From an uncultured Chryseobacterium sp. (GTDB lineage Bacteria > Bacteroidota > Bacteroidia > Flavobacteriales > Weeksellaceae), in assembly GCA_913775525.1 (NCBI GenBank), contig CAJYLH010000044.1, positions 57,022 to 121,021 of the forward strand: DNA of 64,000 nucleotides. The letters are read 5' to 3'. Made by a program: the position numbers and the translations under genes. Below the pieces are notes generated by a model. It was not told the origin of the DNA. It did not search any database and was given only the letters and a program-made list of their open reading frames with translations. Shown here one piece after another: positions 58,240-64,000 of the stretch (its first letter is position 1; each line of letters starts with the position of its first letter).

Positions 58240-59331
58240 TTACCATATTTTTTTATAATGATTAATTGCTTCTTGTTTAAGTTTGCTGGATGACCATTCT
58301 TCCCATTCGCCCGTGTATGGGTCATATCCACACTTCAATGGTTTAGATAAATCTAAAAAATTATCATTGATATAAGACTGTTCTGTAAAAGCTCGACAAT
58401 CTGTACATATATAACGAAATTCACAATCTTTACAAATACTTATACTATCCTTTGTAATATTCCAGTATTGCTTGAAATCTTGATGCATTAATGCTCTTTC
58501 TAATGTTATTTCCTTAATGTGTCCAAAACTTTGAGGCATTGCTGGACAATTTTTTATATTTCCATTGACGTCAATTGCTATTTTCTTGTTGAGACAGGAA
58601 TTATGATTTTTAGCCTCTAAAACCTTGGGAAGATTGGTTTGAAAATTATTAAATGTTATTCCACCGCAGAAACTAAAATTAGTATATTTCTTTTGAGAAA
58701 ATATTACTGAACAATATTTTATTCTTGATCTCATATTCATTTTTGCCGGTGCATTAAATAAAAATAAAGAAGTTAGCCTTTCAAATTTCTGGCTGATATG
58801 AGATATTATATTTTCAGAAATATAACTTGAATATGACGTAATTATTTCAACCGACTGTATTGTTGTATCATCGAAAAGCAGCTTTATATCATCGAAATCC
58901 TTCAGAACTAAATCTTCGTAACATACTAATGCTACAAATTTACAGCCTAATTTTTCTACTTGAGAGATAATTGTTTGGAGAGAGGATAATTCATTTTTTT
59001 TTAATTCAATAATTATATTTGAGATTCTTTCCGCACTCTGATATTCTAAATCTAAGTTAATAAACATATCAAATTCCTCACTACTGCAATAAAACCCATA
59101 TTCTTCCTGAAATAAAAAGTCCAAATACTCATCCAAGATCAATTTATTCTCTTTACCATAATCCTGGTAGATAGATATCAAACTTTCTTTTTTGTTGAGC
59201 CTTTCGATAATATCTGCTAATGAATTAGGAATGAAATCTGATTTTTCACGCTGAAGATCACTGATAAGAGATTGTGTATAACCTTTTGTTACAATGCAAT
59301 TGGAAAAGACTTTAAAATAATTATTATTCAT
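58240..59331 (-). CDS. gwsS: SPASM-domain peptide maturase of the grasp-with-spasm system
   Basis: A 363-residue protein. Its C-terminal SPASM domain has C246, then a glycine at 257 followed by C262, C300, C303, C309, C312 and C334 (CX15C, CX2CX5CX2C, C). SPASM domains hold auxiliary iron-sulfur clusters in peptide-modifying enzymes. The CX3CX2C motif of radical SAM proteins is absent from the N-terminal part. The first roughly 85 residues look like a winged-helix precursor-binding domain (LISDLQREKSDFIP, DEYLDFLFQEEYGFY), which is inference. It overlaps the 69-residue ORF by 4 bp and is the last gene of the cluster. Confidence 0.85.
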   Translation of the reverse strand: MNNNYFKVFSNCIVTKGYTQSLISDLQREKSDFIPNSLADIIERLNKKESLISIYQDYGKENKLILDEYLDFLFQEEYGFYCSSEEFDMFINLDLEYQSAERISNIIIELKKNELSSLQTIISQVEKLGCKFVALVCYEDLVLKDFDDIKLLFDDTTIQSVEIITSYSSYISENIISHISQKFERLTSLFLFNAPAKMNMRSRIKYCSVIFSQKKYTNFSFCGGITFNNFQTNLPKVLEAKNHNSCLNKKIAIDVNGNIKNCPAMPQSFGHIKEITLERALMHQDFKQYWNITKDSISICKDCEFRYICTDCRAFTEQSYINDNFLDLSKPLKCGYDPYTGEWEEWSSSKLKQEAINHYKKIW

Positions 59332-59537
59332 TTTTCTATTCTTAATATAGGTTTGTAGAAATGAAGAATGTCTAACTTTCTCGTACCATAATAGCTTGAT
59401 ACAATTTTCCGTTCATTCTTTTTCAATGGTTGTATATGTTTAAATTCCAGTTCTTGAAATACTAGAGGTAATGTACTGTGATTGGTTTCAATCTCCTTTT
59501 TAATATTGTCAATTTTATACTTATATTTCACGATCAC
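59328..59537 (-). CDS. 69-residue ORF coupled between gwsG and gwsS
   Basis: A small protein that starts with GTG and reads PLVFQELEFKHIQPLKKNER in its middle and ends in HFYKPILRIEK. Its first 17 bp overlap the end of gwsG and its stop overlaps the gwsS start by 4 bp, so ribosomes probably pass from one gene to the next. I do not recognise the sequence. It has no signal peptide or membrane segment. It could be a third component of the peptide system (for example a chaperone or a recognition part) or a fragment of a longer ancestor. Confidence 0.55.
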   Translation of the reverse strand: MIVKYKYKIDNIKKEIETNHSTLPLVFQELEFKHIQPLKKNERKIVSSYYGTRKLDILHFYKPILRIEK

Positions 59538-60444
59538 TAATTAAATTTAATGCAATTTCTTTTTCTAAATGATAATTACAGGGATATGATACCATATCAA
59601 ATTGGCCAACAGGATTAACTTCTAAAAAATAAAAATTATTATCCGTAGAATATATTAAATCAATAGACCCGCTTTCTAAAGAAACTTTTTGCATAAGCTG
59701 ATTGATCATCTGCTCAATTGATTGGGGAAGTTTAAAAGGAACGGTTCTATTAGGCATATCATTATTATATCGCCTAAAGTCTATTTGAGTCTTATCATCC
59801 CCTTGCGAAAATATTGCCATACTCCAGCATTTACCGAAAAGGTAAAAAGTTCTTATCTCGAACTTTTTTTCAATATATTCCTGAATTAATGAAGTGCTAA
59901 AGCTTTTTAAATTATCCTGTTGTAAAATTTTTGTATAGGAATCAATATCTATCCCATCTATATCCCCTAAAAATCCTGGAGTAATAGGTTTTGTAATTGC
60001 TTTCTTATATTTTTTCAGGTCTGGAAATTGACTATCAATAAATGATGGCGGAATTTTTAAGCCGACTTCTCTGGCGATATCATTGACAATCAGTTTATTT
60101 ACATTAGCTTTACTAAAAGAATTAATCTGTTTCTTGTGCGACAACTTATACTGAAGATATTCATGCAAAACAGATTTATTATGCAGTAAATAAGAATTCA
60201 ATTGATGTATCTGTAATTTTTTAAATTCTCCGACAGAAATAAAACCTCTCCTGTACCAGACAGCCCTTATCTCATCAATATCTACTAAAACGCCTTTAAT
60301 CTTAAGGAATATTCCGAAATCCGATGATGACATTTCACATTTATCAGTGTCATTAATTCTAAGCCACTTCATCCTGTAATAGTCCAACCAATCAATAACA
60401 ATATTGGTTGACATGTCATATTCATCTGAGATTATTAATATCAT
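59521..60444 (-). CDS. gwsG: ATP-grasp peptide maturase of the grasp-with-spasm system
   Basis: A 307-residue ATP-grasp enzyme that probably forms ester or amide links between side chains of the precursor, as the microviridin-type ligases do. The N-terminal domain starts MILIISDEYDMSTNIVIDWL. The ATP-binding lysine may lie in KKAITKPITPGFLGD; the metal-binding segment is FYFLEVNPVGQF, and SLIQEYIEKKFEIRTFYLFG is the conserved acid/base region. Its neighbours (precursor upstream, SPASM protein downstream) support the call. AT-rich composition differs from the cco genes beside it. Confidence 0.87.
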   Translation of the reverse strand: MILIISDEYDMSTNIVIDWLDYYRMKWLRINDTDKCEMSSSDFGIFLKIKGVLVDIDEIRAVWYRRGFISVGEFKKLQIHQLNSYLLHNKSVLHEYLQYKLSHKKQINSFSKANVNKLIVNDIAREVGLKIPPSFIDSQFPDLKKYKKAITKPITPGFLGDIDGIDIDSYTKILQQDNLKSFSTSLIQEYIEKKFEIRTFYLFGKCWSMAIFSQGDDKTQIDFRRYNNDMPNRTVPFKLPQSIEQMINQLMQKVSLESGSIDLIYSTDNNFYFLEVNPVGQFDMVSYPCNYHLEKEIALNLISDREI

Positions 60445-60532
60445 ATAAAAAGAATTAGTATCACAATGAAATGGTATGATTTCAGAATCCCATGATTAAT
60501 GGCTATTTTTTGGTGGGATGAGAAAAAATCAT

Positions 60533-60568
60533 AAAAAAGTCCGTTTTCACTAGTTGTGAGACGGACTC
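60533..60568 (-). terminator. Hairpin between gwsA and gwsG
   Basis: On the minus strand AGTCCGT pairs with ACGGACT around CTCACAACTAGTGAAA, followed by six T and then ATGA. It stands right after the gwsA stop (60591) and 90 bp before gwsG. It could stop most transcripts after the precursor gene so that far more peptide than enzyme is made. Confidence 0.8.
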
Positions 60569-60590
60569 AATTAATTGTGATGCGATTATT

Positions 60591-60791
60591 TTAACATCCT
60601 GACCAGCATTCAGTACCTAATAAATGTCCATCTTCATCGTAAGTATATAAGACAGAATCAGCACCTCCTCTAGAACGTGTTGTCTGGCGAATAATTCTTT
60701 TTCCTCCAGCAATACTCTTCATTGAATCTCTAGAAATTTTCTTGTTTTTAATTTCGCTTTTGAAATCTGATAGTGATTTTAAATTTTTCAT
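60591..60791 (-). CDS. gwsA: Grasp-with-spasm precursor peptide
   Basis: A 66-residue peptide. The leader has LSDFKSEIKNKKISRDSMKS and then IAGGK, where a double-glycine-like cleavage motif may separate leader and core. The core is rich in R, T, S and G, then reads SVLYTYDEDGHLLGTECWSG and ends with C. Acidic residues (D, E) and hydroxyl residues (S, T) in the core are the side chains that ATP-grasp enzymes of this kind link. The last residues CWSGC carry two cysteines. It is preceded by a promoter-like site and followed by the hairpin. Confidence 0.85.
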   Translation of the reverse strand: MKNLKSLSDFKSEIKNKKISRDSMKSIAGGKRIIRQTTRSRGGADSVLYTYDEDGHLLGTECWSGC

Positions 60792-60938
60792 AATAAATTT
60801 TTAATATTTAGGGCACGTTATTAAAAAAACAATTTATTCAAAAATTTCATTATAATTATGCAGCCGCGACAATTACATAAATCATAAATTAATATTAATT
60901 TAAATAAATATTATTCAATAACTAAACCATTACGTTTT

Positions 60939-61365: not shown

Positions 61366-61938
61366 TCATAGTTGTTTCGTAATAATTAAATCCTTTATCA
61401 CCGGCAAGTAAATAGTAGTATTTAAAGTTGGAGGACATTTATCTGCTGCTGTTGTATCATTTGGACGATATTCTCAGAAAATTTGTGTTGGATTAGTTTT
61501 TTTAGATAAACTGATCCAAAACCCACGTTGCAATCGGTACCAATATATATTAATTCGGCCTTACTACCATTTTCCGTAACCCATACACTATAGATAGAAT
61601 ACTTTAGATTGTCTGTAGGAAATCTATATTTTGGTTATCTTGTAATATATTTCCTGAAGAACTTTTTATTATATATTTCATTGATAAAACATCTCTATAA
61701 ACTTTCTGATTTCCATAATCAAAAAACTAATCATTTTCTTTAGTGATATACCTGTGATATGATTTCCATTATACGTGGAAATATATGTTCCTACAAAAGA
61801 TTGTAATTCATTATTGGTATCTTTTATATGCGACATATTAGGAACATTATCTAAGGATGTTAACAATGGATATGTTTGTTGTGCTTTACAGAGACATCCA
61901 ACAAGTATTCCTAAGCAAATAATCAAATATTTTTTCAC
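61366..61938 (-). pseudogene. Decayed DUF6705-family gene, last of the array
   Basis: The first 60 residues (from the GTG at 61938) read like the neighbours (YPLLTSLDNVPNMSHIKDTN, then QSFVGTYISTYNG). A one-base loss after NHIT shifts the frame and leads to a stop at 61678. Below this, the sequence still matches the family in other frames (TADKCPP-like, then NTTIYLPV and a final KQL), ending near 61366. At least two more shifts are needed to restore the frame. It is closest to the copy at 63061-63636. Confidence 0.8.
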
Positions 61939-62507
61939 TGCTTTGTAAATATTAAATCTTTTGTCACCGGCAGGTAAATCGTGGTATCCAGATTAGGAGG
62001 GCATTTGGCTGCTGTCGTAGTGATATCATCCGGACGATACTCCCAGGAGATTTGTGTGCTGCTAATTTTTTTTAAATAAATGTCTCCCCATCCAACGCTG
62101 CAGTTTGTCCCAGTATAATTTAATAATACTTTACTTCCATTTTCAATAACCCATAAACTGAAAATTGTATTTAATTGATCAGATTGAAATGATGTATTTT
62201 GAGTTGTTTGAAGTATATTATTCGAAGAATCCTTTATTATATAGCGGATGTAAAGAATATCAGCATATACCTTCTTATTTCCATAATCAAAAAATTTATC
62301 ATTTTCTTTAGTAATATACAATGTGATCTGATTTCCATTATATGTGGAAATGTATGTCCCCACAAAGGGTTGCAACTCATTATTTGTATCCTTTAAGTGA
62401 GACATATTTGGAACATTATCCAAAAAAGTTAACAATGGATATGTTTGTTGTGCTCTACATAGAAATCCAACGAGTATTCCTAAGCAAATAATCAAATATT
62501 TTTTCAC
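61935..62507 (-). CDS. DUF6705-family secreted protein, copy 2 from the array end
   Basis: A 190-residue exported protein starting with GTG at 62507; the GTG overlaps the stop of the gene above (GTGA). The signal peptide ends in CRAQ or similar; a cysteine in the region GFLCRAQQ may be lipidated, which is uncertain. The body has KDTNNELQPFVGTYISTYNG, then ITLYITKENDKFF, and the conserved end CSVGWGDIYLKKISSTQISW, PNLDTTIYLPVTKDLI and FTKQ. The family is common in Chryseobacterium and its function is unknown. Confidence 0.85.
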   Translation of the reverse strand: MKKYLIICLGILVGFLCRAQQTYPLLTFLDNVPNMSHLKDTNNELQPFVGTYISTYNGNQITLYITKENDKFFDYGNKKVYADILYIRYIIKDSSNNILQTTQNTSFQSDQLNTIFSLWVIENGSKVLLNYTGTNCSVGWGDIYLKKISSTQISWEYRPDDITTTAAKCPPNLDTTIYLPVTKDLIFTKQ

Positions 62508-63061
62508 TGCTTCGTAAATATTAAGTCCTTTGTTGCCGGCAGGTAAATCGTGGTATCCAAATTAGGTGGACATTTAGCTGCTGTTGTCGTGATATCATCC
62601 GGACGGTACTCCAAGGAAATTTGTGTGCTGCTAATTTTTTTGAGATAAATATCTCCCCATCCAACACTGCAGTTCGTTCCACTATAATACAGTGTTACTG
62701 CATTTTTGGAAGGATTAGTCGCTAAACTATACAATTCAATATTATATGTATTATTATTTTTTGTATCCTGTAAAACATTTCCTGCGGAATTTTTAACAAT
62801 ATATTTTACAATTAATGCATCCATATAATAGTTCTTTTGCCCTGTTTGTTCTAATTTATCTTCTAGCTTAGTAATGAAAAGAGTAATTTCATTTCCATTA
62901 AAATTAGCTACGTAATTACCTATATATGGTGATAATTCATTATTTGTATCTTTTAAATGTGCACCAGCAGGAATGGTTGAAAAACCAGTATTAAGAGGTA
63001 GGTTCTGAGCCTGACAAAAGGACATCAACATTATCCCTACATATATCAATAAACTTTTCAT
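62504..63061 (-). CDS. DUF6705-family secreted protein, copy 3
   Basis: About 185 residues, starting with ATG at 63061 (a GTG at 63064 is the alternative) so that stop and start overlap in TGATG. Signal peptide MKSLLIYVGIMLMSFCQAQ. The middle differs from copy 2 (EDKLEQTGQKNYYMDALIVK, then DTKNNNTYNIELYS) but resembles the copy at the window edge. The C-terminal third is almost identical to copy 2. Confidence 0.85.
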   Translation of the reverse strand: MKSLLIYVGIMLMSFCQAQNLPLNTGFSTIPAGAHLKDTNNELSPYIGNYVANFNGNEITLFITKLEDKLEQTGQKNYYMDALIVKYIVKNSAGNVLQDTKNNNTYNIELYSLATNPSKNAVTLYYSGTNCSVGWGDIYLKKISSTQISLEYRPDDITTTAAKCPPNLDTTIYLPATKDLIFTKQ

Positions 63062-63636
63062 CACTGCTTCGTAAATATTAAATCTTTTGTCACCGGCAGG
63101 TAAATCGTGGTATCCAAATTAGGTGGACATTTATCTGCTGTTGTTGTTGTATCATTTGGACGATATCCCCAGGAAATTTGTGTTGAACTGACTTTTTTTA
63201 GATTTATTGATCCAAAACCCACGTTGCAGTTAGTACCATTATATATTAACTCAGCCTTACTACCATTTTCGGTAACCCATACACTGTAAATAGAATACTT
63301 TAGATTGTCTGTAGGAAAATCTATATTCTTGGTATCTTGTAATATATTACCTGAAGAACTTTTTATTATATATTTCACTGATAAAACATCCATATAAATT
63401 TGTTGATTGCCATAATCAAAAAACTTGTCAGTCTCTTTAGTGATATAGAGCGTGATGTGATTTCCATTATACATGGAAACATAAGTTCCTACAAAAGATT
63501 GTAATTCATTATTAGTATCTTTTATATGCGACATATTAGGAACATTATCCAAGGATGTTAACAATGGATATGTTTGTTGTGCTTTACACAGACATCCAAC
63601 AAGTATTCCTAAGCAAATAATCAAATATTTTTTCAC
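63061..63636 (-). CDS. DUF6705-family secreted protein, copy 4
   Basis: A 191-residue protein starting with GTG at 63636. The N-terminal half is nearly identical to the pseudogene copy (YPLLTSLDNVPNMSHIKDTN). The C-terminal part reads CNVGFGSINLKKVSSTQISW and GYRPNDTTTTADKCPPNLD, different from copies 2 and 3. It keeps the final IYLPVTKDLIFTKQ. Confidence 0.85.
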   Translation of the reverse strand: MKKYLIICLGILVGCLCKAQQTYPLLTSLDNVPNMSHIKDTNNELQSFVGTYVSMYNGNHITLYITKETDKFFDYGNQQIYMDVLSVKYIIKSSSGNILQDTKNIDFPTDNLKYSIYSVWVTENGSKAELIYNGTNCNVGFGSINLKKVSSTQISWGYRPNDTTTTADKCPPNLDTTIYLPVTKDLIFTKQ

Positions 63637-63661
63637 TGCTTCGTAAATATTAAATCTTTTG

Positions 63662-64000
63662 TCACCGGCAGGTAAATCGTGGTATCCAGATTAGTGGACA
63701 TTTAGCGGCTGTTGTCGTAACATCATCCGGTCTATATTCCCAAGAAATCTGAGTAGCATTAATTTTTTTTAATATTATTCTTCCCCAACCAACACTACAA
63801 TTAGTACCACAGTAAAAAAAATTTACTGTATTTTGAGTAGAAGATGTACTAATACTATATAATTCAATATTTTGATAATTATTATTTTTAGTATCCTGTA
63901 AAATTACCCCTGTAGAATTTTTTATAATGTACTTTATTACTAAAGCATCCATATAGTAATTCTTTTGTCCAGTTTTTTCTAATTTTTGTTCTTGTTTGGT
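63662..64000 (-). CDS. DUF6705-family protein, 5' end beyond the window, shifted C-terminus
   Basis: The frame is open to the window edge and reads QEQKLEKTGQKNYYMDALVI, then CSVGWGRIILKKINATQISW. One base is missing in the otherwise conserved CPPNLDTTIYLP region, so the end becomes CPLIWIPRFTCR and stops at 63662, 26 bp before the next GTG start, instead of overlapping it. It may still be partly functional, as only the last roughly 20 residues change. The type matches copy 3. Confidence 0.75.
   Translation of the reverse strand, partial: TKQEQKLEKTGQKNYYMDALVIKYIIKNSTGVILQDTKNNNYQNIELYSISTSSTQNTVNFFYCGTNCSVGWGRIILKKINATQISWEYRPDDVTTTAAKCPLIWIPRFTCR

Follow-up and report, generated by a model that had tools for sequence, protein, structure and literature searches.

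A four-gene grasp-with-spasm operon in Chryseobacterium whose SPASM protein reads as a radical SAM maturase without its radical SAM site

A 64,000-nucleotide stretch of DNA from an uncultured Chryseobacterium sp. (the window; contig CAJYLH010000044.1 of assembly GCA_913775525.1, positions 57,022 to 121,021) carries the gws cluster, a minimal grasp-with-spasm operon and a further member of an already known family. Its SPASM protein, GwsS, reads as a predicted leader-binding RRE-like domain followed by a radical S-adenosylmethionine (SAM) barrel, shortened and without the cluster loop, and by a SPASM region. The sequence-only reading of the window had proposed a cluster of three genes, and the open reading frames (ORFs) of gwsA, gwsG and gwsS were found on the minus strand at the positions it gave, with lengths of 66, 307 and 363 residues. 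The core of the cluster, however, consists of four genes, gwsA, gwsG, gwsL and gwsS (Table 1); gwsL, which overlaps both the last bases of gwsG and the first of gwsS, was absent from that account. The assignment to grasp-with-spasm was borne out by a profile search, in which GwsG scored 319.5 bits against TIGR04192 (cut-off 230) and GwsS 370.6 bits against TIGR04193 (cut-off 175). As far as the accessible parts of the two papers go, the family corresponds to branch 5 in PMC8939145 and probably to group 14 in PMC13097080, and neither paper gives a product for the group, in agreement with the earlier statement that the chemistry is unsettled.

The description of GwsS as a SPASM protein without the radical SAM motif was right as far as it went but was incomplete, as it did not name the RRE-like domain or the shortened barrel. 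The CX3CX2C motif is indeed missing from GwsS and from the first 150 residues of all 109 distinct relatives that are 300 residues or longer; one of these proteins (from locus L150) has such a motif at residue 294, inside its SPASM region. The structure model of GwsS was confident, with a predicted local distance difference test score (pLDDT) of 90.4 and a predicted template-modelling score (pTM) of 0.85. In the model, the strand formed by residues 105-110 runs straight into the helix at residues 112-127, with no radical SAM cluster loop, and every one of the 87 aligned rows has at most two extra residues at this junction. The best whole-chain fold matches were RRE-radical SAM-SPASM maturases, TigE (8vpo), SuiB, and 5wgg and 5why, the last two of which we take to be CteB. 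The modelled domain order is that of these maturases, whereas GwsS differs from them in the absence of CX3CX2C and of the loop and in its shorter barrel. The N-terminal region has the winged-helix fold of known RREs in the model. When this region was compared with PqqD-like profiles, hhalign gave an E value of 0.0014 with a probability of 17% (controls, 0.018-0.32), and there was no match to the Pfam PqqD family. Within the RRE-like part, G17 was kept in 87/87 rows and D25 in 86/87.

The SPASM region scored 32.3 bits against TIGR04085 (cut-off 27). Its cysteine spacing matched the expected pattern, CX(9-15)GX4C - CX2CX5CX3C - C, except that the third spacing was CX2C instead of CX3C. The seven cysteines listed by the earlier reading (C246, C262, C300, C303, C309, C312 and C334) are where it placed them, but the set was not complete, an eighth, C222, having been overlooked. 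C222 is near-invariant, and all eight cysteines were present in 79 of the 87 rows. In seven rows C222, C246, C262 and C312 were all gone and C300, C303, C309 and C334 were all present, while in one (L114) all eight were gone. This loss in blocks fits two separate [4Fe-4S] sites and suggests that the first takes C222 as its fourth ligand, with the caveats that the seven rows include close relatives and that the eight are for the most part distant members: L111, L112, L113, L114, L116 and the second L115 copy scored 67-133 bits, under the TIGR04193 cut-off of 175, L117 scored 183 and the second L069 copy was unscored. The model is least sure near C222 (mean pLDDT 60 for residues 221-230). Since the clusters can be lost while G17 and D25 stay, the SPASM clusters were read as probably structural. 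The unscored copy belongs to a second, divergent G-L-S set (L069, 17-1857), whose GwsS has no first cysteine quartet. In C. panacisoli this set is found immediately upstream of the window cluster's orthologue.

GwsL has an LPL motif at residues 23-25 and its gene lies directly before the SPASM gene, as in the LPL family described in PMC8939145 (accessible text). It was aligned with 68 relatives and had no Pfam or NCBIfam match at E values up to 1. LP[LIVFM] occurred in 65 of 103 distinct GwsL proteins, compared to a mean of 7.7 in shuffled sequences; the patterns were picked after viewing these related sequences, so that the counts speak for conservation of the motif only. A position-blind profile search of loci of at least 8 kb placed 59/59 distinct GwsL proteins at most 100 bp behind a gwsG and 53/59 at most 100 bp before a gwsS, and in the loci compared gwsL is often joined to the start of gwsS by an ATGA overlap. 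In a looser count, in which the ORF was chosen by its nearness to gwsG, gwsL was present in 105 of 109 loci (79 of the 105 with profile support); among the four without it, L091, L047 and L062 had no gwsG in reach and L060 had no such ORF. Four of 20 further loci (L173, L174, L180 and L187) had two G-L pairs and a single gwsS, which indicates that gwsL is retained with gwsG where gwsS has been lost. The gene goes with gwsG rather than with gwsS. The first gwsG of L187 is split over two frames, and L174 and L187 retain short gwsS-like remnants. An ORF at 3231-4232 of L187 resembles the beginning of GwsS at its N-terminus and a lipoprotein further on, and is apparently a gwsS remnant fused to the next gene.

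The solved relatives of GwsG are CdnC (7mgv; phmmer E 3.7e-19), AMdnB (7m4s) and MdnC (5ig9). Nine residues, K117, K152, E196, R198, D222, R224, D262, E275 and N277, were each conserved in 92 or more of 94 distinct GwsG proteins, and we take them to be putative active-site positions. From its family membership, GwsG is presumed to be an active graspetide synthetase.

The leader of GwsA ends in AGG (residues 28-30) and the core is KRIIRQTTRSRGGADSVLYTYDEDGHLLGTECWSGC. GwsA, a GG-type precursor encoded beside the ligase and SPASM genes, passed only the leader model NF047798 (24.0 bits, cut-off 23.5) and fell under the cut-offs of both precursor models (TIGR04139, 16.3 with a cut-off of 40; PF14406, 17.5 with a cut-off of 25). 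Orthologues in three other species were 79-86% identical, and the core TTRS..(A/S)DSVLYTYDED.HLL.TECWSGC is common to all four species. Relative to the nearest orthologue (L070), the non-synonymous rate dN was 0.10 and the synonymous rate dS 0.77 (0.04 and 1.06 for the core alone). With dN far under dS, the comparison indicates that gwsA is a real gene under purifying selection.

For the family as a whole, 55 candidate cores were picked by pattern from 51 loci, three having been removed by hand. Ser/Thr (or Lys) together with Asp/Glu was present in the GwsA core and in 55/55 candidates, a weak criterion for a graspetide. The motif [DE]x(2-4)[YW]x(1-2)[DNE] occurred in 32/55 candidates (shuffles: mean 17.1, maximum 25), a suggestive enrichment. 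At least one cysteine was present in 35/55 candidates, while 20/55 (19/51 loci) had none, which does not suit thioether formation across the family. For this reason, such chemistry at the ECWSGC tail was set aside family-wide, but it may still apply to the GwsA core, which has two cysteines. A candidate precursor upstream of gwsG in L149 has a core that is nearly all Ser followed by Ser-Asp repeats (SSSS...FTSDSDSDSDSDSDAD) and would, if real, be an odd graspetide substrate.

Gene content, family membership, the selection on gwsA, the predicted fold of GwsS, the absence of its radical SAM motif and the linkage of gwsL to gwsG have direct support, and with them a graspetide pathway appears rather probable in which GwsG makes ester or amide rings, GwsS is a non-catalytic receptor for the precursor and GwsL is the partner of GwsG. 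GwsS would be a former RRE-radical SAM-SPASM peptide maturase that has lost its radical SAM site; its RRE-like domain would bind the GwsA leader, its SPASM clusters would serve a structural role, and it would present GwsA to GwsG. In the GwsA core, GwsG would activate Asp/Glu side chains with ATP and join them to Ser/Thr (or Lys) side chains, with the loss of one water per ring, and GwsL would probably be needed for this activity. Leader removal and export would be the task of an exporter whose gene lies elsewhere.

Within GwsS, conservation is highest in the SPASM region (mean 0.71, against 0.48 for the RRE-like part and 0.35 for the barrel), and this weighs against a purely structural role of the clusters, as catalysis would explain it too. 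Instead, GwsS could modify the peptide a second time, for example by a thioether or a C-C/C-O bond, through its SPASM clusters and either without SAM or with an atypical mode of SAM binding. PMC8939145 treats the family as a radical SAM enzyme of such a kind, and the persistence of the eight cysteines in all but eight rows and the two cysteines of the GwsA core, with at least one in most candidate cores, would suit such an enzyme. We consider it quite unlikely, because CX3CX2C is absent from the first 150 residues in 109/109 relatives, the loop is gone, one or both cysteine quartets are missing in 8/87 rows, mostly of distant members, and more than a third of the candidate cores are free of cysteine. 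It is very improbable that the window copy is simply decaying or silent and yields no product. It does not have the GLPGLI and lipoprotein-like genes of the cluster on contig C36 of the same genome, no transporter was seen among the ORFs at 54-64 kb of the window, and broken DUF6705 copies adjoin it; all four ORFs, however, are intact, four species carry the operon at one and the same site, and purifying selection acts on gwsA.

For GwsL, the accessible text of PMC8939145 proposes that LPL is a PqqD-like leader-binding chaperone of the SPASM protein, and it also considers an interaction of LPL with the ATP-grasp enzyme, LPL recalling the leader motif Phh[x1-2]h. If GwsL were such a chaperone of GwsS, GwsG would work without it. 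The closeness of gwsL to gwsS at most loci, often with overlapping start, is in keeping with this, as is the mirror-tree analysis of 70 loci, in which GwsL co-varied as strongly with GwsS as with GwsG (partial correlations 0.38 and 0.36; bootstrap range of the difference -0.25 to 0.16). Several observations make it unlikely, 1) every distinct GwsL in the position-blind count was within 100 bp of gwsG, 2) in 9 of 105 loci other genes separate gwsL from gwsS, with a gap of more than 400 bp, 3) the second G-L pairs of four loci have no gwsS of their own, 4) GwsS seems to own an RRE-like domain and 5) the model of GwsL alone has no RRE-like fold, although its confidence was low (pLDDT 76.7, pTM 0.39) and it was not used.

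A more specific version of the pathway in which GwsL assists GwsG can be offered tentatively. The job of the leader may be split, GwsS gripping the GwsA leader and GwsL acting as an activator in trans, with an LPLxF[KQ]xxE helix on the site of the ATP-grasp enzyme that PFFxxFLE of microviridin-type leaders takes up; GwsG would be on only in the complex, and one GwsS might serve several G-L pairs. MdnC and AMdnC are activated by a leader helix, also in trans (PMC5934393, accessible text). The chryseoviridin-type precursors of the source genome have PFFASFLE leaders, and a Phhx(1,2)h-like motif is rare in grasp-with-spasm precursor candidates (4/58). Together with the motif in GwsL, these observations suggest that GwsL supplies the activating helix. 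In a direct profile test, hhalign placed PLVFQELE of GwsL on PFFASFLE in the expected register, but the match lacked significance (E 0.4, against 0.25 for the reversed control), so that the idea is held only tentatively.

The order of a GG-type precursor, an ATP-grasp ligase, LPL and a SPASM protein is the one given for grasp-with-spasm (TIGR04192/TIGR04193) in branch 5 of PMC8939145, and the window cluster differs from others in being minimal, as no cluster-23-like lipoprotein or transporter gene was seen beside it. Microviridin and chryseoviridin systems (MdnC, CdnC) resemble it in their related ATP-grasp ligase and in the Ser/Thr and Asp/Glu of their cores; their precursors, however, have PFFxxFL-type leaders, as seen in the same genome, that GwsA does not have, and no SPASM or LPL gene was seen in their loci. 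In rosaritide biosynthesis (MirB and MirC; PMC13097080, accessible text), a graspetide synthetase likewise depends on a partner protein, but MirC, whose N-domain is reported to be weakly RRE-like, is a peptidyl-prolyl isomerase/chaperone-like protein and not a radical SAM/SPASM relative as GwsS is.

The family, its precursors, the SPASM protein and LPL are already in print. In their accessible text, PMC8939145 and PMC13097080 refer to this SPASM protein as either a radical SAM or a SPASM enzyme and mention no RRE in it. The open-licence literature, as far as its text was accessible, yielded no product for grasp-with-spasm, no RRE-like domain in GwsS, and neither the eighth cysteine with its block-wise loss nor the link between LPL and the ATP-grasp gene from tandem loci. 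The chemistry appears not to have been worked out, and 127 of 173 genomes of the genus encode a GwsS over the cut-off. If GwsS is a dead radical SAM enzyme that serves as a receptor, reconstitution with SAM and a reductant seeks the wrong chemistry, GwsG alone should fail and co-expression of the four genes should work. Such a receptor suggests a division of labour among the proteins of the operon, and a leader protein acting in trans, if true, would be a natural version of the addition of leader peptide in vitro (PMC5934393, PMC13003496; accessible text).

Table 1. Features of the gws cluster, in window coordinates
Feature	Position	Strand	Description	Basis
gwsA	60591..60791	-	66-residue precursor	NF047798 leader model, orthologues, dN/dS
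Terminator-like hairpin and T run	60533..60568	-	between gwsA and gwsG	RNA fold
gwsG	59521..60444	-	307-residue ATP-grasp ligase (putative graspetide synthetase)	TIGR04192
gwsL	59328..59537	-	69-residue LPL-family protein, GTG start	ORF, alignment, LPL motif
gwsS	58240..59331	-	363-residue SPASM protein without radical SAM motif	TIGR04193, model
GwsS residues 4-93	59053..59322	-	predicted RRE-like domain	
GwsS residues 94-220	58672..59052	-	shortened radical SAM-like barrel without cluster loop	model and 87-row alignment
GwsS residues 221-345	58297..58671	-	SPASM region with C222 and seven further cysteines	TIGR04085, two cysteine quartets

The hairpin between gwsA and gwsG was not listed by a simple terminator scan; the RNA fold of 60530-60592 had an energy of -15.5 kcal/mol (z -4.31). 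Three orthologues have another stem (GACTACCA...TGGTAGTC, read by eye in an alignment) at the same place, which suggests that the element was kept though its letters changed. Upstream of gwsA, TCGCGGCTGCAT (60858-60869, minus strand) is identical in the four orthologous loci and is possibly a regulatory site of the operon; other matches with at most one mismatch are scattered among 249 sequences. A scan for sigma-70-like promoters gave 21 hits with 24.1 expected, and one for TTTG-TANNTTTG, which we take to be a Bacteroidetes promoter type, gave 4 in the window with 2.2 expected and none in the gws operon. A tandem DUF6705 array (61372-64000, minus strand), with three whole ORFs and remnants at both ends, lies directly upstream of gwsA; its genes were rejected as part of the system, being present in only 1 of 81 loci over 8 kb, that of the window.

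The neighbouring genes at the chromosomal site shared by the four species were read as a cbb3-oxidase cluster. TIGR04193 matches were found in 138 of the 173 genomes of the genus and, in a sample of the phylum, in 30/395 genomes (12/395 over the cut-off). Among named genomes, a scan located 38 loci, most of them in Chryseobacterium and others in Taibaiella, Niabella, Amniculibacterium and some metagenome bins. The source genome encodes four TIGR04193 proteins, all over the cut-off, and six TIGR04192 matches, three of them over. Its sole C39-peptidase match is an ABC transporter on contig C2, adjoining an HlyD-like gene, and likely a common exporter; the genome-wide TIGR04193 search placed no grasp-with-spasm cluster on that contig. 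The cluster on contig C36 (L107, 7361-12559) is a second grasp-with-spasm cluster; it encodes a GLPGLI protein (TIGR01200, 139.7 bits) and also has lipoprotein-like genes, of which one separates gwsL from gwsS. Contig C41 carries a chryseoviridin-type cluster (L110, 3953-6502) with two ATP-grasp genes and two precursors with KKPFFASFLEKQ leaders; one of these precursors is matched in 142/171 genomes of the genus.
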